A stretch of DNA of 64,000 nt from positions 24,966-88,965 of IMG/VR virus record IMGVR_UViG_3300009085_000002; one strand, 5' to 3'. Made by a program: the position numbers and the translations under genes. This DNA is from a virus. The notes under the pieces are model-generated. The model had not been told where the DNA came from, ran no database searches, and saw nothing but the letters and a program-made list of their open reading frames with translations. Below, one piece after another: positions 7,246 to 64,000 of this stretch (positions are counted from its first letter, which is position 1; every line of letters begins with the position of its first letter).

Positions 7246-10200
7246 ATGAAACATAAAATAGGATTTTCCAAAGGATTAAATAAAGATATTTCTCCAGATA
7301 AATATGATAGTGAAAATTATTGGGATGCTATGAATATTCAGATTATGTCTGATACAGAGCATGGTGGGTATGCAGTTTCTCAAGAATTAGGTTTAGGAAC
7401 TTTATTTTTATTTCCTACAGGCCATGAATTGCTAGGATGGACTACAATGAGAAATTATTTAATTTGTTTTACTGGAAAGAAATCTACAGCAGACTATTTA
7501 TATATATGGCTGCTTGAATTTGAAGGTTCAATAGATAAGATAAAAAAATCTTCTACTCCTGGAGATTACATAACTTATATGGATACTTTAAGTACTTCTT
7601 ACCATTTAAAGTACTCTGCTGATCTAAATATAAACTTTAGTGATTCTAATGAATTAAAAATAGATTGTCTTGCAAAGTATATAAATTCTACTTACGGTAA
7701 AGTATATTGGACAGATTTTAATAACCCCCTAAGATCTATTAATATATTAGATCCATTAGTAGCCTCTACAGATTCAGGATTACTAGATGTTATTCCTGAT
7801 ATAGAATTAACTAATCCTAAGTATAATGTAACTTCTACAACATCTACAGAAGTACTACCTGGAGGTATTATTCCTTCTGGTATGGTTCAATATTGTTATC
7901 AACTCTTTAATAGAACTGGTGTTTATTCTGCTATATCTTCAATGACAGCACTGTTACAATTAACTTCTGTAAGTCATGCTGTTGCAGATCCTCATGATTA
8001 TATAGGAGATAGTTTAAGCACAAGTTCAAATAAAAAAATATCTATAAATATTACTAATACAGATAGTAATTATGAATATATAAGAATAATAGGTATATAT
8101 TATACAGATAGCACGAATATTCCTTCAGTAAAAGTAGTTAAAGAGGCTATAAATCCAAAGACAGGAACTTTAATTGTAGTAGATAATGGTAGTAATTATT
8201 TAGAAACACTTACTATAGAGTCCTTAATAGGATCTAGTAATTTATTTACATGTAAAACTTTAGCAGTTAAAGATAAAAGACTTTGTGCTGGTAATATAGA
8301 AGAAACTTTCTTTGAAGTAGATTATGATACTAGAACTTATAGATTTGAATATATAACTCCTTCTCCAAGATTATATGCAAGAATACAAAATGTTGATGGT
8401 ACGGAAGCAATAACAAGTGATCCTATATTATATTTGGGAGGAGCTTGGAACTATGATAGAGCTTGGTTTGATACTATAATGAACGGAGGAGAATCCATTC
8501 CAGAGGAACATGACTGTTTTATTGGTTATAATAGTTTATATGATGCTACAGCAAATAATACTAATAATCCCTTATATTTCTATAAGTGGATGTTATATGA
8601 TAATGGAGATGGTACTTGGACTAGAAGATTAGGAGGTATGGGAAAAAATATAGACTATTGGTTTACAATAGATCCTATAATAATGTTAGATAATGATGTT
8701 AATTCTGAGGAATATTTATCATCAAAAGGAAATTATAACTATGATTCTTGGTATCCTAATGCAAGTAGAGTATCAGATGCTTATGATGATTGGATTAACT
8801 ATAAATGTTATACTAATTCAGGTTGCTTTAGGGGATATCAAAGAGATGAAATATATAGATTTGGAATAGTTTTTATTAATGGAAAGGGCCAGAGATCCTA
8901 TGTATCTTGGATTGGAGATATTAAAATGCCCGCTATATGGGAAGAAGATGCAATTGAAACTATTACTGGAATATATACATTTCCTACAGCTATATGGGAT
9001 AATACTTATTCAGAATTAAAAGGATGTACACTATCAATAAATTTTAAATTATATAATATACCTATAGATCCTATTACTGGTGTAGAATATAGATATCAAA
9101 TAGTTAGAGTAATTAGAAATCAATCAGATCAATCTATACATTCTCAAGGTGTATGTAGAACTTTACAAGATGTTGGAACTGCAATGACTGAGTGGTATAT
9201 GGACTTTCCAATAAATGCTACTCCGGCAGGACAAACTTATGCTAAATATTTTACTTCTCCTGAAATATGTTTTTTAGGTAGTAATTTAAATGATCTTACA
9301 TCTTATTATTTAGATAATCAATACACCTTTTATGAAACTGGAGATACTGTCTATGGAGTAAATAATTTACAAAAAATGGGAGAAGAGACAAGTATATCTT
9401 CTCCTATTGAAGCTTATGTATATAAGGGAAGGACTTGGGATAGAATGTATAATACAGTTACTCCTGGATTTGAAAAGCCTTTGACTGAAGCTACTCATAA
9501 AGTAGAAACTATATTAGATAGTTTTATAGCAGATCAAGAAGTTGATACTTTAACTGAATCTTTATCAGGACCATCTGGAGGCTATACAATTCTTATGAAT
9601 ATTAATGAGTTTGATCCAACTAATATGTATGGAAAAGTAGCTTTTATAACAACAAATATGTTACAAAGGCATGATGATTCAATTAGTTGTGTATCTAATT
9701 TAAAAACTATTAATATAAATCAATATGGTGGGTCTACTTATATAGCAAGACAGAATAATGAATATATAATTTGTACAGGAATACTTAATGGAGAAAACTC
9801 CAGAAAACAAGTATTTGGAGGAGATATTTATATATGTTATTTCTCTTGGTTAATGGCTGTAAATAGAGGACTTTTAGGAGCTACTTATGCAAGCAATGTA
9901 CAAATTGTAGGGTTATATCCTATAGAAACTAGGTATAATTTAGATATGCAGCATGGTGATTTTTGGCCTTATTTAAAAGAAGTATATTTAAGTGGTTATG
10001 CTGGTAGTTCTTATGCTCCTACAACTCAAACCAAAGACTATTATTTATATAATTCTGTGTATTCTAGAGAAGAAGATGTTATTAAATATTATGCTAAACC
10101 TGTATTATTTGAAGAACAACAACATATAGATACTCAAATTAAAATATCAGATCAAGCAATAGGTTCTGAACTTATAGATAGTTGGTTATCTTTTCAAACA

Positions 10201-11394
10201 AATAATATTTCAGAAGTAGATACTGAGTATGGAGCAATAAATAAATTATTAACTTGGAAAGATAAATTATATTTTTTTCAAGATATTGGCTTTGGTATTC
10301 AAGCATTGAATGAAAGAGCTTTAATGAGAACTGAAACTGGAGAAGAATTAGTTATGGGTTCTGGAAATATAGTAGGAGATTATGGATATATATCTACTAA
10401 CTATGGAACTAAATTTATGAGATCTGTATTAGGTACAGAATCTTCTATATATTTTATAGATTCCTTATCAAAAGCTTTAGTATCTTATAATATGTCTCAA
10501 CAAATACCTATTAATAAAATTAAAGGATTAAACAGTTATTTTAATAATTATTTAAATGGGGATATTACTGTAGAAGATTACGGAAATTTAGATATAGATA
10601 TAAATTCTGGATTTGATAAAGAGAATAATAGAATATATTATACAATAAAAAATTCCTATACTATTACAGTACCTACAACAAGTAATTACTTCTTATTATA
10701 TACAGGATATGCTTATAAAATGGATCTAATAAAAGAGGGATCTATTTGGTATTATGGTACAACTCCTATAACTATAACATCAATAAATACAAGTTATTCT
10801 CCAGTAAGAATATATTTTACTGGAGCAACTATAACTAATGCTTATACTAAACTTACAATACCCTTACAATTTACTATTTCATATAATGAATTATTAAACA
10901 TATTTGAATCATTTCATGATTATTTACCTGATTTTTATGTAAGTGTACAGGATAAATTATTGCAGCACACTAGAAATGCAGTATCAGGTGGTGCATCTGG
11001 AACTAGATTAACTTCTGTACATAATGCAGGATTACCAAATAGAACTTCTTATATAACTATACTTAGTAATCAATATCCAGATTTAATTAAGACTTTTACT
11101 AATTTAGAATATGACTTATCTACAAAATATTTAGATAAAGATATATATGATAGTAATCTTTCTTCTATTCAAGTATATAATGATTATCAGAATACTAATG
11201 AAATAACTTTAACTAGTAATAATAGTAAAAGAAGAATGAGAACATGGAGATATACAATTCCTAGAAGTATAGCAATGACTACAGGTGATAGAACTGATGC
11301 CAGAATAAGAGATTATTATAGTAAGATAAAATTTAAATTCATAACTAATAAAATACAAAAACTTAGAAATGTGATAGTTAAGTTTTTACCATAA
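7246..11394 (+). CDS. Large tail protein (muzzle or tail-stabilisation type)
   Basis: The protein has 1382 residues and begins MKHKIGFSKGLNKDISPDKY, close to the N-terminus pattern of the crAss-like tail stabilisation or muzzle protein, followed by YWDAMNIQIMSDTEHGG. The body is rich in beta strands, Tyr and Ser/Thr, as in a large beta-propeller or sandwich tail protein. There is no signal peptide or membrane segment. It follows the ring-protein gene by one base and precedes the cargo genes, the same order as in described crAss-like phages. It probably forms the distal tail tube opening. Confidence 0.6.
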   Translation: MKHKIGFSKGLNKDISPDKYDSENYWDAMNIQIMSDTEHGGYAVSQELGLGTLFLFPTGHELLGWTTMRNYLICFTGKKSTADYLYIWLLEFEGSIDKIKKSSTPGDYITYMDTLSTSYHLKYSADLNINFSDSNELKIDCLAKYINSTYGKVYWTDFNNPLRSINILDPLVASTDSGLLDVIPDIELTNPKYNVTSTTSTEVLPGGIIPSGMVQYCYQLFNRTGVYSAISSMTALLQLTSVSHAVADPHDYIGDSLSTSSNKKISINITNTDSNYEYIRIIGIYYTDSTNIPSVKVVKEAINPKTGTLIVVDNGSNYLETLTIESLIGSSNLFTCKTLAVKDKRLCAGNIEETFFEVDYDTRTYRFEYITPSPRLYARIQNVDGTEAITSDPILYLGGAWNYDRAWFDTIMNGGESIPEEHDCFIGYNSLYDATANNTNNPLYFYKWMLYDNGDGTWTRRLGGMGKNIDYWFTIDPIIMLDNDVNSEEYLSSKGNYNYDSWYPNASRVSDAYDDWINYKCYTNSGCFRGYQRDEIYRFGIVFINGKGQRSYVSWIGDIKMPAIWEEDAIETITGIYTFPTAIWDNTYSELKGCTLSINFKLYNIPIDPITGVEYRYQIVRVIRNQSDQSIHSQGVCRTLQDVGTAMTEWYMDFPINATPAGQTYAKYFTSPEICFLGSNLNDLTSYYLDNQYTFYETGDTVYGVNNLQKMGEETSISSPIEAYVYKGRTWDRMYNTVTPGFEKPLTEATHKVETILDSFIADQEVDTLTESLSGPSGGYTILMNINEFDPTNMYGKVAFITTNMLQRHDDSISCVSNLKTININQYGGSTYIARQNNEYIICTGILNGENSRKQVFGGDIYICYFSWLMAVNRGLLGATYASNVQIVGLYPIETRYNLDMQHGDFWPYLKEVYLSGYAGSSYAPTTQTKDYYLYNSVYSREEDVIKYYAKPVLFEEQQHIDTQIKISDQAIGSELIDSWLSFQTNNISEVDTEYGAINKLLTWKDKLYFFQDIGFGIQALNERALMRTETGEELVMGSGNIVGDYGYISTNYGTKFMRSVLGTESSIYFIDSLSKALVSYNMSQQIPINKIKGLNSYFNNYLNGDITVEDYGNLDIDINSGFDKENNRIYYTIKNSYTITVPTTSNYFLLYTGYAYKMDLIKEGSIWYYGTTPITITSINTSYSPVRIYFTGATITNAYTKLTIPLQFTISYNELLNIFESFHDYLPDFYVSVQDKLLQHTRNAVSGGASGTRLTSVHNAGLPNRTSYITILSNQYPDLIKTFTNLEYDLSTKYLDKDIYDSNLSSIQVYNDYQNTNEITLTSNNSKRRMRTWRYTIPRSIAMTTGDRTDARIRDYYSKIKFKFITNKIQKLRNVIVKFLP

Positions 11395-30719: not shown

Positions 30720-30887
30720 TTATTTATATTTTCTTAAAATATCTTGAATTGATTTAAGTTTATAAGGTAATTTACTTTGTAAAGTTAATAGATGAAACTG
30801 TGCTGACATTGCTAAATAAGTGTCCTTTAATGCTTCATTAATTTCATCTACAAGGGCACTTATTTTTTTAATGTCATCTTGTTTCAT
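30720..30887 (-). CDS. Small hypothetical protein, 55 residues
   Basis: The ATG at 30887 starts a frame of 55 codons and a TAA. The product begins MKQDDIKKISALVDEINEAL and is amphipathic helical throughout. It is the last gene of the minus-strand block, 14 bases from the HD-domain gene and next to the terminator. Function unknown. Confidence 0.6.
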   Translation of the reverse strand: MKQDDIKKISALVDEINEALKDTYLAMSAQFHLLTLQSKLPYKLKSIQDILRKYK

Positions 30888-34610: not shown

Positions 34611-35435
34611 TTATTTAGACCAACAATTAGATATTTTAACATCTACAACCACTGGAACTTTTTTTAATATTATTTGTCCTGCTTTTATCATAAGTTCTTG
34701 TAATTTAGCTTTCCATAGCTCTGCTTCACTTTTTAAGCACTCAGTTTGTAATTCATCATATATCTGAAGAATAATTCCAGCATTCCATTCATTATCATCT
34801 ATTTCGTCTTGTATATAAATCATTGCTTGCTTAATAATATCTGCATTAGCGCCTTGTATAGGAGAATTCATAGATGCCCTATTTATACTACCTAACCATT
34901 TATTTTTAGAAGGTGTATTAGGATTATCTTGAATATAATTCCATTTTGGAAATTGTCTTATTCTTCTAAAAGGTTTAGGAGTTCTAATATAACCATAAGT
35001 TTGACCAAATAAACCCCTTTCTTTTAAAAAAGCTTCTACTTTAGGAACTTTAGAAAAGAATTTTTTAATTATCTCTTTTGCTAGATCTACAGATATACTA
35101 GCTGTATTGGATAATTTATATTCGGTCATACCATAGCTCAAGCCAAAGTCGATGGTTTTCTGTAAGTATCTATAAGTAATTGAAGGATTATGAGGATAAG
35201 GCTCATTAACCCTACTAATATCTATATCAAATGTTTCACTACATAATATACTATGAAGATCTTTTCCTTCTTTAAATGTATTAATCCATAGAGGTTCTTC
35301 AGATAATTCAGCTATTATCCTTAGTTCCATATTAGAATAGTCTCCCCCAACAATAACATAATTATCATCCCTTGGTATAAAACAACTTCTAATTATAGTA
35401 CCTAGCTTACCCTTACGTGGTATCTGATTTAAATT
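34611..35435 (-). CDS. polA: DNA polymerase I (family A), exon 2: palm, fingers, motifs A-C
   Basis: This is the C-terminal 274 residues of the polymerase. Joining to exon 1 restores TGRISVSVP-NLNQIP, the same spacing as TGRLSSTDP-NLQNIP in E. coli Pol I. Motif A is GGDYSNMELRIIAEL, motif B is RYLQKTIDFGLSYGMTEYK, and motif C is YDELQTEC, where Tyr replaces the usual His of HDE. An ATG at 35441 could give a separate fragment, but that would lack the exonuclease and thumb parts. The likely product after splicing is 660 residues and replicates the phage genome. Confidence 0.85.
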   Translation of the reverse strand, partial: NLNQIPRKGKLGTIIRSCFIPRDDNYVIVGGDYSNMELRIIAELSEEPLWINTFKEGKDLHSILCSETFDIDISRVNEPYPHNPSITYRYLQKTIDFGLSYGMTEYKLSNTASISVDLAKEIIKKFFSKVPKVEAFLKERGLFGQTYGYIRTPKPFRRIRQFPKWNYIQDNPNTPSKNKWLGSINRASMNSPIQGANADIIKQAMIYIQDEIDDNEWNAGIILQIYDELQTECLKSEAELWKAKLQELMIKAGQIILKKVPVVVDVKISNCWSK

Positions 35436-36256
35436 CACCATTTGTTATGATTTATCATTTCATAACGGTGGACTATATCATCTACTAATAATTTAATTTG
35501 TAATTTTTTTCTTTCTAAACAAAATTCATCATAATCTTCATATAAATCAATAGAGTGTTTCCAAAAATCTGTTCTTGTACTCATCTCTTTACCTAATTTA
35601 TTTTTTACAGGGTTTATACTTAGATCATAATTATACCAATATTTAAAGGCATTCTTTAAATCTTCTACTAAATATGATGAATGAGAATACCACCTAATAA
35701 TAATATTATGCTCCGTATTTCTTATATTACCATCTCCATCTATAAATCCTCTTAAAGCCATTTTAAAACAAGTTTTATTGTAAAATATTGGAAATTTTAC
35801 ATTACTAGTTTTATTTGGAACTCCAACACCTAATGATATTAATAAGTCTACTAAATATTTATTACTTATAGTTAACTTATAAGAGTAATGATTGTCCTTA
35901 GTCTTAAATTTATATACAGGAGTTAATTTATCTTTAGAAAAATATTTTGATAACCTTTCTAATATTTTAGGAGAATCAGTTATAGCTAAAGCTACTCTAC
36001 TATTTTTTAGATCTATGTATCCATCAGATACTATACATCCTATATAATATGCAAATATTGGATTATTTATATCAAATAAATCTTCATTGTAAGTATACTT
36101 TATTTTTGATCTAATATTTGTTAATTTATAATCTTTTATTAGTTTTTCTATATACCATAATCCAACATTTTGTTCTTCTGCTATTTCTCTTTGGGACTTT
36201 CTATTTAAGACCCACTCATCATGTAAAAATTGTTTAGTTATTTTTATTGTATTCAT
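35435..36256 (-). CDS. Intron-encoded LAGLIDADG homing endonuclease
   Basis: The protein has 273 residues. It begins with a helix-turn-helix-like region (about 14-45, with KSQREIAEEQNVGLWYIEKL). Two LAGLIDADG motifs follow: YIGCIVSDGYI (about 71-81) and ALRGFIDGDGN (about 167-177), with acidic residues placed to bind catalytic metal. This is a single-chain homing endonuclease that would cut intronless polA alleles and spread the intron. The gene lies between the two halves of the intron's P7 helix, and its TGA stop straddles the 3' splice site. It has its own promoter-like sequence. Confidence 0.85.
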   Translation of the reverse strand: MNTIKITKQFLHDEWVLNRKSQREIAEEQNVGLWYIEKLIKDYKLTNIRSKIKYTYNEDLFDINNPIFAYYIGCIVSDGYIDLKNSRVALAITDSPKILERLSKYFSKDKLTPVYKFKTKDNHYSYKLTISNKYLVDLLISLGVGVPNKTSNVKFPIFYNKTCFKMALRGFIDGDGNIRNTEHNIIIRWYSHSSYLVEDLKNAFKYWYNYDLSINPVKNKLGKEMSTRTDFWKHSIDLYEDYDEFCLERKKLQIKLLVDDIVHRYEMINHNKW

Positions 36257-36528
36257 AGGAATATTTTATAATATTTCCACAAATATAACAAATTTTATGA
36301 AACATTCAAGTAAAAATTAAAATTATTTTTTTAGTAGTCGGACGCTTTTTCATTAATTTATTATTAATTACTTCCTGTTATTAAGTAGACTTTACTACTC
36401 AGGTAGTCTCTGAACCTTCTAAAAGTGTACTTTTAGCTTGGCTGCTGATTGCCCTTATTATTTGATGGGTTTCCAGCAATTCATCCGATTCATTATAAAA
36501 ATTACTTTTTATACGCCCAATATATCTT
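35436..36528 (-). mobile_element. Group I intron interrupting polA
   Basis: The 1093-base intron runs from after the U at 36529 to a terminal G at 35436. Core elements on the minus strand are: P4 UGCUG (36473-36479 region) with CAGCA (36440-36447); a P6-type hairpin AAAAGU/ACUUUU (36421-36434); P7 GACUA in UUCAGAGACUACC (36404-36408) with UAGUC in GAUAUAGUCC (35471-35475). The last exon bases GUCCCU can pair partly with UUGGGCGU as P1. The first bases of exon 2 (AAU) can pair with AUU just before GGG as P10. Features suit subgroup IA. Splicing keeps the frame. Confidence 0.8.
36280..36310 (-). promoter_or_regulatory. Promoter inside the intron for the homing endonuclease
   Basis: Read on the minus strand: CTTG (36310-36307), 19 bases, then TATATTTG (36287-36280). 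The -7 box is exact and the -33 box is one base off TTTG. Transcription would start near 36273, 17 bases or so before the endonuclease ATG at 36256. This would let the endonuclease be made apart from the polA transcript. Confidence 0.5.
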
Positions 36529-37686
36529 AGGGACACTTACAGAAATCCTACCGGTGCTGAGTATCTGCCATATAGAAGGATGGATTCTCTTGGTAATAGG
36601 GTTTATCTCAGATAGTAAGGAGTCTCCAAAACTTGTATATAATTTATGATATTCATTATATTCTAATAACTCTTTTACTATGGGATATTTATTCTGGATC
36701 TTCCTAAGAGATTCTGATTTAGTATCTTTTAGTGTCTTATCATATTCTTTTAATATACCTAATTTTTGTTCTGGAGAATCCCAATTTATATTAACATTTA
36801 CTTCATGGGTATACATATCTTCTGTTAGAACAATAGGAACTTTCTTATTTCTATTCTTCTTCTTTACAGTTATATATTTTATCTTATCTTTTAATATAAA
36901 AGAATTTAACTTTCTTTTAGACTCTTCTAAAGTTTTCTTAACTTCTGTAATAACTTCTTTTGTATACTTCTCTTTATCTAATCTTATACCTCTATAAAGC
37001 ATTTTAGCAAATACTCTGACTACTTTATTTTCTAGAATTTCAACTTCTCCTGTAGAATAGAATCTTTTATTAAATCTAATTAAAGCTTCTTTCTGCTTAT
37101 TTATTATAGGCTCTAATACTTTAACATCATTTGCAGCATATTCTATTACAGCTTGAGTTAAACCCATATACTGTATATTACCTCTTATAGACTTATCAAG
37201 ATTAAATTTTAGATACTTTTCTGATAATTTACCTAATGAAAACTTTCTAACTACATATTTCTTAGAATCTTCTATTGTAGATTCTTTTGCTATATCTTTT
37301 TCATCTAAATCATTATTATAACCACAATATAAAATATTTTCTTGTAGTTGAGTATCTGATATATTTTTAACATCTGTACTATGATGTAATAGAAACCTTA
37401 AGTCAAATTGGGCATTAGCAAATATGAAAGTTTTATTACTTTCTAAAAGATCTTTATATCTTGATATATTAATACTTGATAAATCTATAACAAATTGATT
37501 ATTCCAATCTCCTAATTGAAGAGTTAACATTTTTTTAGTATAGGGATCAAATCCTTCTGTTTCACTATCTATACCTATAAAAGCATGATTCTTAAAATAA
37601 TTTATAGAATCTTCTATAGAACAATACTGAATTAAGTCTTCATTATATTTACTTAAACTAGTTTGATTAGTTACTAAATATATCAT
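36529..37686 (-). CDS. polA: DNA polymerase I (family A), exon 1: 3'-5' exonuclease and thumb
   Basis: This is the N-terminal 386 residues. The 3'-5' exonuclease domain has Exo I IGIDSETEGFDP (Asp40, Glu42), Exo II FANAQFDLRFLLHH and Exo III IEYAANDVKVLEPI, so proofreading should be intact. A thumb region with many Lys follows, then WQILSTGRISVSVP, where the intron enters. Unspliced message would add a few intron-coded residues and stop at 36502. There is no 5'-3' exonuclease domain; a separate gene at 39379-40284 supplies that. Confidence 0.85.
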
Positions 37687-42531: not shown

Positions 42532-43724
42532 TATATAGTTATATTTAATTTTTTATTAATAAGATATTCTTCAAAATTAGACTCTATTTTATCTACTACT
42601 TCTCTTAATATAATTCTATGAATTTGTTTAGGATAATTATCTTCTTTCATATTATTAATAATTTTAGAATATATATCTTTTCCATTAAATTCTAAACAAA
42701 GTTTAGGATCATCATTAATAAAATTATTATCAACTATAGGAGTATAAGAAATATTATTTTTTTGTATATAACAATTTTCTGGATATTTATTTGTTAATAT
42801 AGAATCTATTAAATCTATTGATGATTGACTTAACTTTATTGTATAACAATCTTTTACTATTTCAAAAGTATATTTAAAATTATTTATAGTATTAATAATA
42901 TAATTATAATACATATTATTCAAAAGTTTATTATTCTCATCAGTAGAAAGAATACACTGCGAAAGATTATTAGTTTTTAATAAATTACTAATAAACATAT
43001 AAGGACTACCTTCAATACTTTCCCAACTTAAATAAGAAGGTATACTTATTAATATAGAAGAAAAATCACTAAGCCCACCTTTATATATTTTATTTATAGA
43101 TTTCTGTAACTCTGTATTTCCAAAGCACAAACTACTCCATTGTCCTATCTTATTACTACGAGCATGAGAAAATAAATAATTATTTAAATATTCTGCAATA
43201 GATACAGTAGTTCTTGTCATATTAATATTTTCTACTAGCCATTTAGAATTTGTATATCTGAAAGTAAATTTAAAATATATATCATACATAGTATGAGATA
43301 ATTCAATACTATTTGTAATAGTTGTTTCTGGAAAATATAATGTTAAAGTAATAGTACGACTATCATAAATATTTAGCTCATAAGAATCTTTAGAATATAG
43401 TTTGCATACTGTAGCTTCTAAATAATGTGCAAATTTTTCATTATTAAATTTATGTATTTTGTTAAATAATAATTCCTTTAAATATATTTTTATATCTTTA
43501 TAATTTAGAGGTATAAAGGAATCATGAAAATTAAAGTACGACGCCATACAAATATTAGTACTAGTTAAAGTTTTATAGAATATATAATTTTTAAACACAT
43601 ATTCTTTTATTATTATATATGTATTATTAATATCTATAAAATATTTAGCTTGATGAACCGATTTACTTAACTCCTCTTTTAATTCCTTCTCTGATAACTT
43701 TAATAATTCTTCTGGTATTTGCAT
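42531..43724 (-). CDS. Possible E2-like protein of the ubiquitin-like cassette
   Basis: The protein has 397 residues. At about 180-203 the sequence YLNNYLFSHARSNKIG, then WSSLCFGN, resembles the His-x-Gly-x-Cys-x-Gly-Asn surroundings of prokaryotic E2-like domains, with His187 and Cys200 as candidate active residues. Beta strands such as YFKFTFRY precede it, as in the E2 fold. The match is by eye only. The better evidence is position: it lies between the beta-grasp and JAMM genes and is coupled to the latter. Its N- and C-terminal parts are unassigned. If E2 is wrong, it is a cassette-specific protein of unknown role. Confidence 0.45.
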   Translation of the reverse strand: MQIPEELLKLSEKELKEELSKSVHQAKYFIDINNTYIIIKEYVFKNYIFYKTLTSTNICMASYFNFHDSFIPLNYKDIKIYLKELLFNKIHKFNNEKFAHYLEATVCKLYSKDSYELNIYDSRTITLTLYFPETTITNSIELSHTMYDIYFKFTFRYTNSKWLVENINMTRTTVSIAEYLNNYLFSHARSNKIGQWSSLCFGNTELQKSINKIYKGGLSDFSSILISIPSYLSWESIEGSPYMFISNLLKTNNLSQCILSTDENNKLLNNMYYNYIINTINNFKYTFEIVKDCYTIKLSQSSIDLIDSILTNKYPENCYIQKNNISYTPIVDNNFINDDPKLCLEFNGKDIYSKIINNMKEDNYPKQIHRIILREVVDKIESNFEEYLINKKLNITI

Positions 43725-47401: not shown

Positions 47402-48442
47402 TTAAAATGAACATAATAAATTGTTCAATAATTCTTTTGTTTTATACTCTCCATATATTTTCCTATAATCAGAAATATCTGATGTAGTATTATCTGGAGT
47501 ATGGATATAAGAAATATTATATTTCTCTTTCCATTGCTTTGCATATTCTATACCTGGATTTGGATTCTTATTAAAATCATTATTTGCAAAATATATTTTA
47601 TGTTTATAATCTGTATTTAGTTTAGTCCAAATATTTGTAGAAAAAATTGTATTTTCAGAATTAGGTGCTATTATGTTTATATACCCTAATTCTTCCATAC
47701 ACATTATATCTTTTAGACTGGTTTGTATAATTAATAATTCACCTGGTTGTATAAAATTCTTATTAAATATCAAGCTTTTATCAGTATTACCAAACCAATA
47801 TTTATTAGGAGCATAAATTTTAATTGCTTCTATACCCTTTAAATTATTTCCTAGACCTATATAAGCATAAGCTAGGTAATTTCCTATATTTATAGCTTTA
47901 TCATTAATCCAATAAGTTGTTATAGGAATAACCAATTTTTCTTTTAATTTTTTCTTAGAAATTCCATACTGTTTCCAATAAGATAAATCCTCATTAGAGT
48001 AATATATAGAATTTCCTTTTATTTTTGCTTTTATTTTAATTTCAACTTCTATAGGATTATCTTGAATCTTAGGAACATTTTTTATTAAAACTTTATTACA
48101 AATAACATCAAATCTAGGTTTAACTAGATTTAGATTAAAAGCTTCATTTACTTCTGCTAAACATCTAATAAAACTATTATTATAACTATAATATTTAGTT
48201 CTTTGTAGAAATTGATACCATGTTTCAGGCTTTAATTGATTAGGATCTCCCCAATCTTTCATAAGAAGATCTCCTCTTGTACCATAACATATAGTACAAG
48301 AAGGATGATCTTCTTCTTTTCTCATTTTAAATGGTTTATTAATATTTTTATAATCAACTAAGTATGACCAAATTTCTTCTTGTGAAAGCTTCTTATGAAT
48401 ATTATCCAGATTAAGATTTGGTTTTATTTTAATCATACTCAA
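47402..48442 (-). CDS. DNA primase with TOPRIM-like domain
   Basis: The protein has 346 residues. The N-terminal part has MRKEEDHPSCTICYGTRGDL then DWGD, like the DnaG-type nucleic-acid binding region. The C-terminal half reads as a degenerate TOPRIM fold: ELLIIQTSLKDIMCMEELG (where DnaG has EGxxD), a strand IYFANNDFNKNPNPGIEYA in the place of the DxD strand, and TPDNTTSDISDYRKIYG. It would make primers for phage replication beside the helicase. The Glu-to-Gln change at the first TOPRIM acid is worth checking. Overlap with the next gene is four bases. Confidence 0.6.
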   Translation of the reverse strand: MSMIKIKPNLNLDNIHKKLSQEEIWSYLVDYKNINKPFKMRKEEDHPSCTICYGTRGDLLMKDWGDPNQLKPETWYQFLQRTKYYSYNNSFIRCLAEVNEAFNLNLVKPRFDVICNKVLIKNVPKIQDNPIEVEIKIKAKIKGNSIYYSNEDLSYWKQYGISKKKLKEKLVIPITTYWINDKAINIGNYLAYAYIGLGNNLKGIEAIKIYAPNKYWFGNTDKSLIFNKNFIQPGELLIIQTSLKDIMCMEELGYINIIAPNSENTIFSTNIWTKLNTDYKHKIYFANNDFNKNPNPGIEYAKQWKEKYNISYIHTPDNTTSDISDYRKIYGEYKTKELLNNLLCSF

Positions 48443-55848: not shown

Positions 55849-56211
55849 TTATTTTTCCTCTTTTGACAATGAAGACAACTCATCTTCTAAGAATTTAATT
55901 AAATTATTAAAGTTATTAAGCTCTTTTTCAGCTTCAGTAAGCTTATTTTTAGCATTAGTTAAATCCTGGATATATTTATTTCTATCTGAAATAGATTTTC
56001 CATTATTAACTCTGGCTAAAGATAAAGCTTCTTTTGCTTCAATTACTTTATCCTCTTTTCCTATCAAATCTCCTTTCATAGAAGAAATTTGACTAGTTAA
56101 AGCTGAATTAGCTTGTCTCCATACTTTTTGTGCAGTAGCTTCAGCATCATCACCTTTAATAACTGCAATAAACTGTTTTACAAATGAATTCATTACTTTT
56201 GCTGTACTCAT
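55849..56211 (-). CDS. Coiled-coil protein, 120 residues
   Basis: The first 50 residues form a helix (MNSFVKQFIAVIKGDDAEAT, WRQANSALTSQ). Residues 50-118 are a long heptad coiled coil rich in Lys, Glu and Leu. It is followed by its own terminator, which suggests a separately controlled, abundant product. Function unknown. Confidence 0.55.
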   Translation of the reverse strand: MSTAKVMNSFVKQFIAVIKGDDAEATAQKVWRQANSALTSQISSMKGDLIGKEDKVIEAKEALSLARVNNGKSISDRNKYIQDLTNAKNKLTEAEKELNNFNNLIKFLEDELSSLSKEEK

Positions 56212-59606: not shown

Positions 59607-59691
59607 CTCCAATCCTAGGATTTGAACCTAGCCTTTTATTATTTTAAGTACCAGTTTAATTCTAAATACTCAGTATATGAACTTGATTGGA
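59607..59691 (-). tRNA. tRNA-like element, possible degenerate tRNA-Thr(GGT)
   Basis: The 85-base minus-strand sequence has a perfect 7-bp acceptor stem (TCCAATC / GATTGGA), discriminator G, and a perfect T arm (CTAGG TTCAAAT CCTAG). The best anticodon arm is TTAAA-CTGGTAC-TTAAA, with one A-A mismatch, which would give anticodon GGT (Thr). The D region can form only GTTC/GAAT with an unusually long loop and no GG, and 11 bases precede the T stem. It may be a decayed tRNA or a tRNA-like processing signal. Confidence 0.5.
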
Positions 59692-61314: not shown

Positions 61315-61414
61315 TAGAGACTATTGGAGTCGAACCAATCTTTTATTCTAGTTGAATATTGTGCATCAAACTATTAAGATTTTATCTATATAGTCATTCT
61401 ACACTATCATCTCT
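61315..61414 (-). tRNA. Second tRNA-like element, abnormal core
   Basis: The 100-base minus-strand sequence has a perfect T arm (ATTGG TTCGACT CCAAT), then AGTCTCT and A, and a partner acceptor AGAGATG with five Watson-Crick pairs, one T-G and one mismatch. The core is too long for a normal tRNA. It includes a hairpin (ATAGT/ACTAT, D-arm-like) and a bulged stem TAGTTTGA/TCAACTA with a 10-base loop. No anticodon is convincing. As in the first element, AATAAAAG precedes the T stem. Confidence 0.4.
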
Positions 61415-61427
61415 ATTTTAGATTATT

Positions 61428-61625: not shown

Positions 61626-61649
61626 AGGTATTTATTATTAAGTTTATTA

Positions 61650-62005
61650 AGTTCTTTGTATGCAATTTGAGTAAATGAAGGCTTAGTTGATAGTTAATAA
61701 GTGAAATTGGTATCATGTCTTCTAGTGTCTTAAAGTGGTGACAGATGGCATGACTTAGCAATAACTAATTATTTTCATTTCAACACTCATTATCACTACC
61801 AATATTCACTTATATTATCAAATAGTTTGTAATCTCCTTTTCGTTTAATAAGCTCGTCTATCAATCTTAATTGATTACAGACTTCTAATTAAACTACAAT
61901 AATACTCACTCTTCCAACTTAATGAATTTAATCTATCACCAAATTCTTATGTGTATGGTGTGAGTTTTAGGATACTTTCAATTATAGTTAAACTAGTTTG
62001 ATAAT
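61650..62005. ncRNA. Gene-free stretch with long-range stems, possible structured RNA
   Basis: No open frame of note crosses these 356 bases, and the base composition is less AT-rich than the flanks. Three nested domains are visible. The first is a 16-bp stem with a one-base bulge (61697-61712 with 61797-61813) that encloses TCATG/CATGA. The second pairs TAGTTT-GTAATC (61823-61834) with GATTAC (61873-61878) and AAACTA (61891-61896). The third pairs ACTCAC (61904) with GTGAGT (61960) around CACCA/TGGTG. Strand is unknown. TTGTATGCAA at 61656-61665 recurs at 62510-62519. Confidence 0.4.
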
Positions 62006-62009
62006 GTTT

Positions 62010-62217: not shown

Positions 62218-62454
62218 TTAAATTTTTGTTTCAAGACCTTTTAAGACTAAATAACCTATATTACTAGGCTTATATCTTCTTTCATCTCTTATAAATTCTT
62301 TAAATACTACATTAACTAAAGGTTGCCATTGAGAAGACCATACATGCCCATTATTTTGTTCTTTTAAATAATTATATATCTTAATACAATCCTCAGCATC
62401 CTTTTTATAATCTGTTTTTAGCTGCTTTTCTAATCTTAAAAGTAGTTTTCCCAT
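62218..62454 (-). CDS. Hypothetical protein, 78 residues
   Basis: A helical, basic protein starting MGKLLLRLEKQLKTDYKKDA, with NGHVWSSQWQPLVNVVFKEF in the second half. It is downstream of the hairpin at 62474-62508. No family recognised. Confidence 0.5.
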   Translation of the reverse strand: MGKLLLRLEKQLKTDYKKDAEDCIKIYNYLKEQNNGHVWSSQWQPLVNVVFKEFIRDERRYKPSNIGYLVLKGLETKI

Positions 62455-62473
62455 AGTTTTTAATTTTTTTAAA

Positions 62474-62508
62474 AGAAGAGAGGCTCTTAGTTGAGTTTTC
62501 TCTCTTCT
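62474..62508 (-). terminator. Hairpin terminator at the end of the second gene-free stretch
   Basis: AGAAGAGAG / CTCTCTTCT form a 9-bp stem with a 17-base loop, followed on the minus strand by TTTTAAAAAAATT. It may end the transcript of the gene-free stretch, or act as a leader hairpin for the gene starting at 62454. Confidence 0.6.
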
Positions 62509-62509
62509 A

Positions 62510-62985
62510 TTGTATGCAAATTTAAATCAATATTTCCAGGTGTATCAATAATCTGGACTGCACAATTAGTTATAATTCATCTTCTTTATTACTCATAGAG
62601 TGTTTTGTTATAACCATATGATCAAATATTTCTATTTGAAAGGCTAAATAATTTCGATTGGATTAAGCCAATTCTACTTCAACTGCAAATTACATAGCTG
62701 CCAATACAAACAGATAGAGGTCTAATACTTTCAACAAATGTATTTCTTTTCGAGTTGTTACCTTGTTATAATATATTATTACCATATCAATTAAATACTT
62801 CATATTCCTTACTACCAAAGAGTAAGATCCATAATTAATTGACTTAGGCATAAATATGAAAAGAACGATTAATGAAACTAATTTGGCTCTGTTACTACTC
62901 AAGTATACTATTGTAGAATTAGTTTATTCGTGTCTCTACCCATCATTAATTGTTCTAATAATTAATCTAAGGTGTATTATTTTAC
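62510..62985. ncRNA. Second gene-free stretch with 13-bp closing stem, possible structured RNA
   Basis: I see no convincing gene in these 476 bases. Paired elements are: GAACGATTAATGA (62863-62875) with TCATTAATTGTTC (62943-62955), 13 bp with one G-U; inside it AACTAATT (62876) with AATTAGTT (62917); a separate TCAATTAA (62787) / TTAATTGA (62835) stem that encloses CTTACT/AGTAAG; TCAAATA/TATTTGA near 62621; CCAG/CTGG near 62537. Such stems in both gene-free stretches, near tRNA-like elements, suggest a large phage RNA. Strand is unknown. Confidence 0.4.
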
Positions 62986-62988
62986 TTA

Positions 62989-63225
62989 TTATTCTAATAT
63001 AGATTTACTACAAGTTTCTCTCCAGTCAGGCCATGTTTCTCTACATTCTGGTTGATAATTTTCAAGAGTATTACCTCTAAATCCATTATTATATGCATTA
63101 GCAACCAATTTATCTGCTTCTGATTTCTTTTGAACATGATAAATTTGCCAAATCATTCCACCCTTATGGTTACGAATCATTAAAGTTTTAGGATACTTAT
63201 TATTCTTTGTTAGGTCTGTATACAT
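62989..63225 (-). CDS. Hypothetical protein, 78 residues
   Basis: It begins MYTDLTKNNKYPKTLMIRNH and contains KKSEADKLVANAYNNGFRGN and a Cys/Trp-rich end (PECRETWPDWRETC). Small proteins of this sort are found in Bacteroidetes phages, but no function is known. It is the first gene upstream of the second gene-free stretch. Confidence 0.5.
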   Translation of the reverse strand: MYTDLTKNNKYPKTLMIRNHKGGMIWQIYHVQKKSEADKLVANAYNNGFRGNTLENYQPECRETWPDWRETCSKSILE

Positions 63226-63250
63226 ATTTTTATATTTGTAAATAATTAAT

Positions 63251-63444: not shown

Positions 63445-63831
63445 TTAATCTGAAAAATCTTTTATAATTTCCAAATATTTTAGTTTATTTGATGCTAAAG
63501 ATTTATAACTCTCACCCCTAAAATTAAATGACCCCTCATAATATTTAGATCCTTTAGGTATTACACATTTTACTAATGTAACTAATTTATCTTTAGCCAT
63601 ATAACAAGCATCTTTTTTATACTTCATTGAGTGTAATCCTTCATTAATAAGGCCTTTAGTAAATAGTAGTTGTATTTTTATAAGTTTGGATCTATAAGTT
63701 TTACCTATTTTTATTATCTTATGTCGGTAATAAGTTAAATAAGCTTGATTAACTTTTATTATATACTTATAAACCACTATATCTTTTTTTGCAATTAGGG
63801 GTTCTTTTGTTGTCAAATTCTCTAAGCACAT
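63445..63831 (-). CDS. Conserved phage protein, 128 residues
   Basis: It begins MCLENLTTKEPLIAKKDIVVYK and contains NEGLHSMKYKKDACYMA, then KCVIPKGSKYYEGSFNFRGE and SYKSLASNKLKYLEII. The order (AKKDIVVYK, EGxHS, CxIPKGSxYY, SyxSxxLxy) is a small-protein pattern I have seen in Bacteroidetes phages. No enzyme motif is visible. Confidence 0.55.
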   Translation of the reverse strand: MCLENLTTKEPLIAKKDIVVYKYIIKVNQAYLTYYRHKIIKIGKTYRSKLIKIQLLFTKGLINEGLHSMKYKKDACYMAKDKLVTLVKCVIPKGSKYYEGSFNFRGESYKSLASNKLKYLEIIKDFSD

Positions 63832-63842
63832 ATTATTTTAAA

Positions 63843-64000
63843 TTATTTATTAAGTTTTGAATGTAACTTTCCTATAGGTCTGCCTCTAAGGTCTATTTCT
63901 TGATAGGATAGTATTTCAGATCCAGCATATACTATATTATTATCAAGCATATTAGTATATCCACGATCTGTACCTTTATATATAATACCTCCTAGAGTTA
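63843..64000 (-). CDS. Partial hypothetical protein, C-terminal 52 residues
   Basis: The frame is open from the right edge of the window to a TAA at 63843, so the start lies beyond 64000. The visible end contains GGIIYKGTDRGYTNMLDNN and LSYQEIDLRGRPIGKLHSKL. It lies 11 bases upstream of the next gene on the same strand. No family recognised. Confidence 0.55.
   Translation of the reverse strand, partial: TLGGIIYKGTDRGYTNMLDNNIVYAGSEILSYQEIDLRGRPIGKLHSKLNK

Follow-up and report, generated by a model that had tools for sequence, protein, structure and literature searches.

The 534-nt non-coding gap at positions 62455-62988 of the analyzed window is best read as an untranslated, probably transcribed spacer in the early, minus-strand gene run of a crAss-like phage, ending in a terminator-like hairpin. 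A probability of roughly 45% is given to this reading, which is drawn from sequence. The window is the whole stretch of DNA that was analyzed, 64,000 nt in length, and it corresponds to bases 24,966-88,965 of an IMG/VR virus record with a total length of 88,965 bp. The gap lies on the minus strand between two 78-aa ORFs without known family, one upstream (62989-63225, minus strand) and one downstream (62218-62454, minus strand). Under the preferred reading, the gap would probably be transcribed together with ORF 62989-63225, forming a long untranslated tail on its message, and transcription would most likely be ended, fully or partly, at the hairpin 62474-62508 before ORF 62218-62454, as suggested by the hairpin sequence and by the matching placement of other terminators. 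A longer stem inside the gap, flagged in the initial annotation of this DNA, would then be a 3'-untranslated hairpin starting 32 nt past the stop codon, and it could protect the message upstream against exonucleases.

The gap in its genomic context

The two ends of the record share 123 identical bases (window positions 63878-64000 and positions 1-123 of L141, the record start). Because of this overlap, the record is probably a closed (circular), complete genome of about 88.8 kb, despite its IMG/VR class of "linear". The predicted proteins place this AT-rich genome distantly among the crAss-like phages, where it has no close relatives. For example, the helicase shared 25-29% identity with Flavobacterium and gut crAss-like phages among the matches listed, and the large RNA-polymerase protein was about 23-33% identical to most GenBank phage matches, with higher values over short pieces, and reached about 50% identity with the best IMG/VR records.

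All long genes were found on the minus strand from 30.9 kb to the window end, and this gene run continues into the record's left end, which favors the spacer reading. At the point where the convergent plus- and minus-strand runs meet, a 14-bp hairpin was observed (30814-30865), which is probably a two-way terminator. Within the minus-strand run, two ORFs resembling parts of a DNA polymerase A gene (34611-37686) were found on either side of an ORF with a LAGLIDADG-type domain (35435-36256, minus strand), and a 245-nt gap also lies between the two parts. This region is likely interrupted by a mobile intron, while Rfam reported no intron in 34611-37686.

No coding signal was detected by codon usage in any of the six frames of the 534-nt gap, which favors a spacer and led to the rejection of a decayed protein gene. 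When the stops of the gap were read through, the sole family match was to phrog_6771 on the plus strand (E 0.053), and it was not accepted as real. The initial annotation treated the stretch as a non-coding one that may be transcribed into RNA, and this is supported by the six-frame result, by the length of the gap in a gene-dense phage, and by the terminator-like hairpin at its minus-strand 3' end. Among the gaps scanned in the window and in the first 20 kb of the record, this one was the largest without an assignment. A length of 534 nt is long for so dense a genome, and this counts against a simple spacer.

The terminator-like hairpin (62474-62508, minus strand) is composed of a 9-bp stem followed by TTTAAAAAAA and lies 19 nt upstream of the start codon (ATG) of ORF 62218-62454, with a stem z of -2.7 on the minus strand. 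Clear terminators are similarly placed before the minus-strand ORFs ending at 43724, 55787, and 58757, and before several more within the record's left end, which argues for a candidate terminator and for the spacer reading. Against both, the T-tract is short and broken by an A, and the hairpin was absent from a strict terminator scan. The gap resembles the operon spacers with intrinsic terminators of Bacteroidota phages, as it is non-coding, lies between co-directed genes, and carries a hairpin and a T-rich tail before a start codon. However, it far exceeds the other spacers of this genome in length, and its T-tract is weaker.

The fold of the gap as a whole (62455-62990) was no better than that of shuffled sequences, with z values of -1.46 on the plus strand and -0.50 on the minus strand. 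The stretch 62510-62985 had been described as unusually structured, and as a whole it is not; a spacer should fold in just this way. The same result weighs against the first of the alternatives, a discrete and trans-acting phage non-coding RNA of about 450-500 nt on the minus strand, which would end at the hairpin 62474-62508 and would be similar to the large RNAs near tRNA islands in other phages. In its favor are the greatest length among the non-coding gaps scanned and the terminator-like 3' end. Nonetheless, no convincing promoter of its own was found for the gap, where near-matches were as numerous as in shuffled sequences, and no Rfam match was obtained at gathering level anywhere in the window, so that a known RNA family was rejected as the identity of the gap. 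A functional non-coding RNA in the gap is possible, but such a discrete RNA is considered unlikely, even as the foremost of the alternatives.

The flagged stem and its strand

The stem flagged in the initial annotation pairs AGAACGATTAATGA (62862-62875) with TCATTAATTGTTCT (62943-62956); the outer end of the latter lies 32 nt past the stop codon of ORF 62989-63225. It had been reported as 13 bp with one G-U and an adjacent inner pair of 8 bp. Both helices were present, including the G-U pair on the plus strand, but the outer stem proved to be 14 bp, and the inner stem, stacked directly inside it (62876-62884 and 62916-62924), measured 9 bp.

The stem had also been held unlikely to arise by chance, and this depended on the comparison. 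When the 534-nt gap was dinucleotide-shuffled 400 times, a helix of at least 13 bp was found in 2.2% of the shuffles and one of at least 14 bp in 0.7%, while the double helix did not occur (0/400). With shuffles of the entire window as background, the result was borderline: the double helix occurred in 2 of 60, single helices of at least 13 bp occurred about four times per shuffle, and 13-bp helices were ordinary across the window itself, with eight seen on the plus strand against 3.9 expected from the shuffles. Since the criteria were fixed after the stem had been seen, the figures from both gap and window shuffles flatter it. In a regression-based sliding-window energy scan, the stem region had a z of -2.0 on the plus strand and about +0.5 on the minus strand, and 106 of the 3,196 windows in the same scan were below a z of -2. 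The gap thus contains an RNA-type hairpin that is real yet not exceptional. The strongest fold signals in the window, also regression-based, were at 48201-48320 (z -5.9) and 55921-56040 (z -5.8), both inside predicted genes.

The local fold of the stem was better on the plus strand (z -3.83) than on the minus strand, where it was ordinary (z -0.63), which speaks against a minus-strand spacer carrying this hairpin. The G-U pair of the plus strand becomes an A-C mismatch on the minus strand, and the stem is uninterrupted only on the plus strand. A structured plus-strand (antisense) RNA, as suggested by these two observations, is nevertheless highly improbable: its whole basis is a single G-U pair, no T-run follows the stem on the plus strand, the one perfect plus-strand promoter match, at 63206-63238, is located beyond the stem, and the neighboring genes are all on the minus strand. 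A single G-U pair cannot decide the strand; it favors the plus strand, while all neighboring genes run on the minus strand.

Relatives of the gap

According to the initial annotation, the gap and a first stretch may be paralogous RNAs or have a control element in common. The first stretch is a separate non-coding gap on the minus strand (61626-62009) that folds with a z of about -2.5 on either strand. The decamer TTGTATGCAA was indeed present at both places (62510-62519 and 61656-61665), and the pattern TTGYATRCAA occurred only once more in the record, inside a gene. As a link between the two stretches, however, the decamer was not confirmed, as some 10-mer was common to 52% of shuffled pairs of gaps with this length and composition, and, when up to one mismatch was allowed, a 13-mer was common to 40% of such pairs. 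A second, unrelated 10-mer is also common to the two gaps. In addition, blastn of the first gap against the second returned only short, weak matches at chance level. Paralogy is therefore unsupported and was rejected, and the gap does not appear from its sequence to be a copy of the first stretch. With nothing beyond a chance word to link the two, the spacer reading is again favored.

Searches of viral contigs, GenBank phages, plasmids, and 50 related phage records gave no homologue of the gap, which counts against a discrete RNA. The search routes included the neighboring proteins, relatives of the helicase and the RNA polymerase, and the DNA itself, and none was of use. The blastn matches to the 50 related records were mostly about 14-54 nt long, with a best E of 3.9e-4, and look like AT-rich chance matches. 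Similarly, a motif from a distant phage gave 26 matches in viral contigs, a number at about chance level by estimate, and a gapped decamer-plus-hairpin pattern gave nine matches, where none of the four inspected resembled the gap.

The distant crAss-like phage L002 encodes a homologue of ORF 63445-63831 (40% identity), and a long non-coding stretch and tRNA genes come directly after it. This arrangement is suggestive of a common genomic neighborhood, but no more than suggestive, because in the window two small ORFs separate ORF 63445-63831 from the gap. Two non-coding stretches of L002 (3747-4072 and 6355-6687) lie directly before its tRNA-Ala and tRNA-Glu genes and have a common 98-nt element at 71% identity; neither had a match in Rfam. 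While the non-coding stretches of L002 are like the gap region in lying near a homologue of ORF 63445-63831, directly behind it in L002, no sequence similarity to the gap was found, and they are more G+C-rich and interleaved with intact tRNA genes. The L002 arrangement is consistent with a discrete RNA in the gap, and its intact tRNAs are also consistent with an eroding island.

The tRNA-like elements and known phage RNAs

Two tRNA-like elements were found in gaps on the minus strand at 59608-59691 and 61315-61415, and each combines a T arm with an acceptor stem of 7 bp or more. Their T arms read ATTGG-TTCGACT-CCAAT and CTAGG-TTCAAAT-CCTAG, and their middles are 53-70 nt in length, compared with 38-42 nt in the tRNAs of L002. 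Both elements were missed by ARAGORN, which found no tRNA in the window, and neither gave a canonical tRNA match in Rfam. The acceptor/T-arm scan returned two further matches, both inside genes. Since the same scan yields 0-4 matches per shuffled window, the count alone is weak evidence, while the pair stands out by its T-loop words and by its position in gaps. The elements may be divergent tRNAs, relics, or mimics. A survey of crAss-like phages suspects that some phage tRNAs escape current detection programs (PMC7886860), and for this reason the two elements are regarded as a better lead than the gap.

These elements are in favor of a discrete RNA in the gap, and they also bear on the next alternative, where the gap would be a relic, now functionless, of former genes, tRNAs, or RNA in an eroding island of tRNAs and non-coding DNA. 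The intact acceptor and T arms and the unrecognizable middles of the two elements are consistent with such erosion, as is a gap with neither a found homologue nor an overall structure. On the other hand, the gap itself showed no trace of coding frames, and no tRNA was found in it by ARAGORN, Rfam, or the acceptor/T-arm scan. Additionally, useless DNA tends to be deleted by phages, which argues against a relic. A relic comes after the discrete RNA and is likewise unlikely, and the spacer remains the preferred reading.

Another non-coding gap of the record, to the left of the window in its left end (L141, about 9965-10350, plus strand), starts with a perfect Bacteroidota-type promoter (TTTG-N20-TAttacTTTTG) and ends with a hairpin followed by TTTTTTT. 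Judged by these sequences, it surpasses the gap 62455-62988 as a candidate stand-alone phage RNA, and its promoter-like and terminator-like sequences add to the case for discrete RNAs in this genome. That the gap encodes a large non-coding RNA that is new and phage-specific, is one of several here, and is perhaps tied to a highly divergent tRNA-like cluster is considered quite improbable.

Large phage RNAs such as ROOL and GOLLD are often located near tRNA islands (PMC12286853). The gap resembles them as a long non-coding phage stretch, and the two tRNA-like elements, though not tRNAs by ARAGORN, are in its neighborhood, but its overall fold is not stable and it is shorter than a typical GOLLD. 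The covariance models of GOLLD and ROOL did not match the window at gathering level, nor did they match the gap when E values up to 10 were allowed.

Phage genomes ordinarily contain untranslated spacers and hairpins at operon ends, and as it stands the gap matters little. If it turned out to be a discrete and abundant RNA, it would join the few large phage RNAs with function unknown that are located near tRNA islands.
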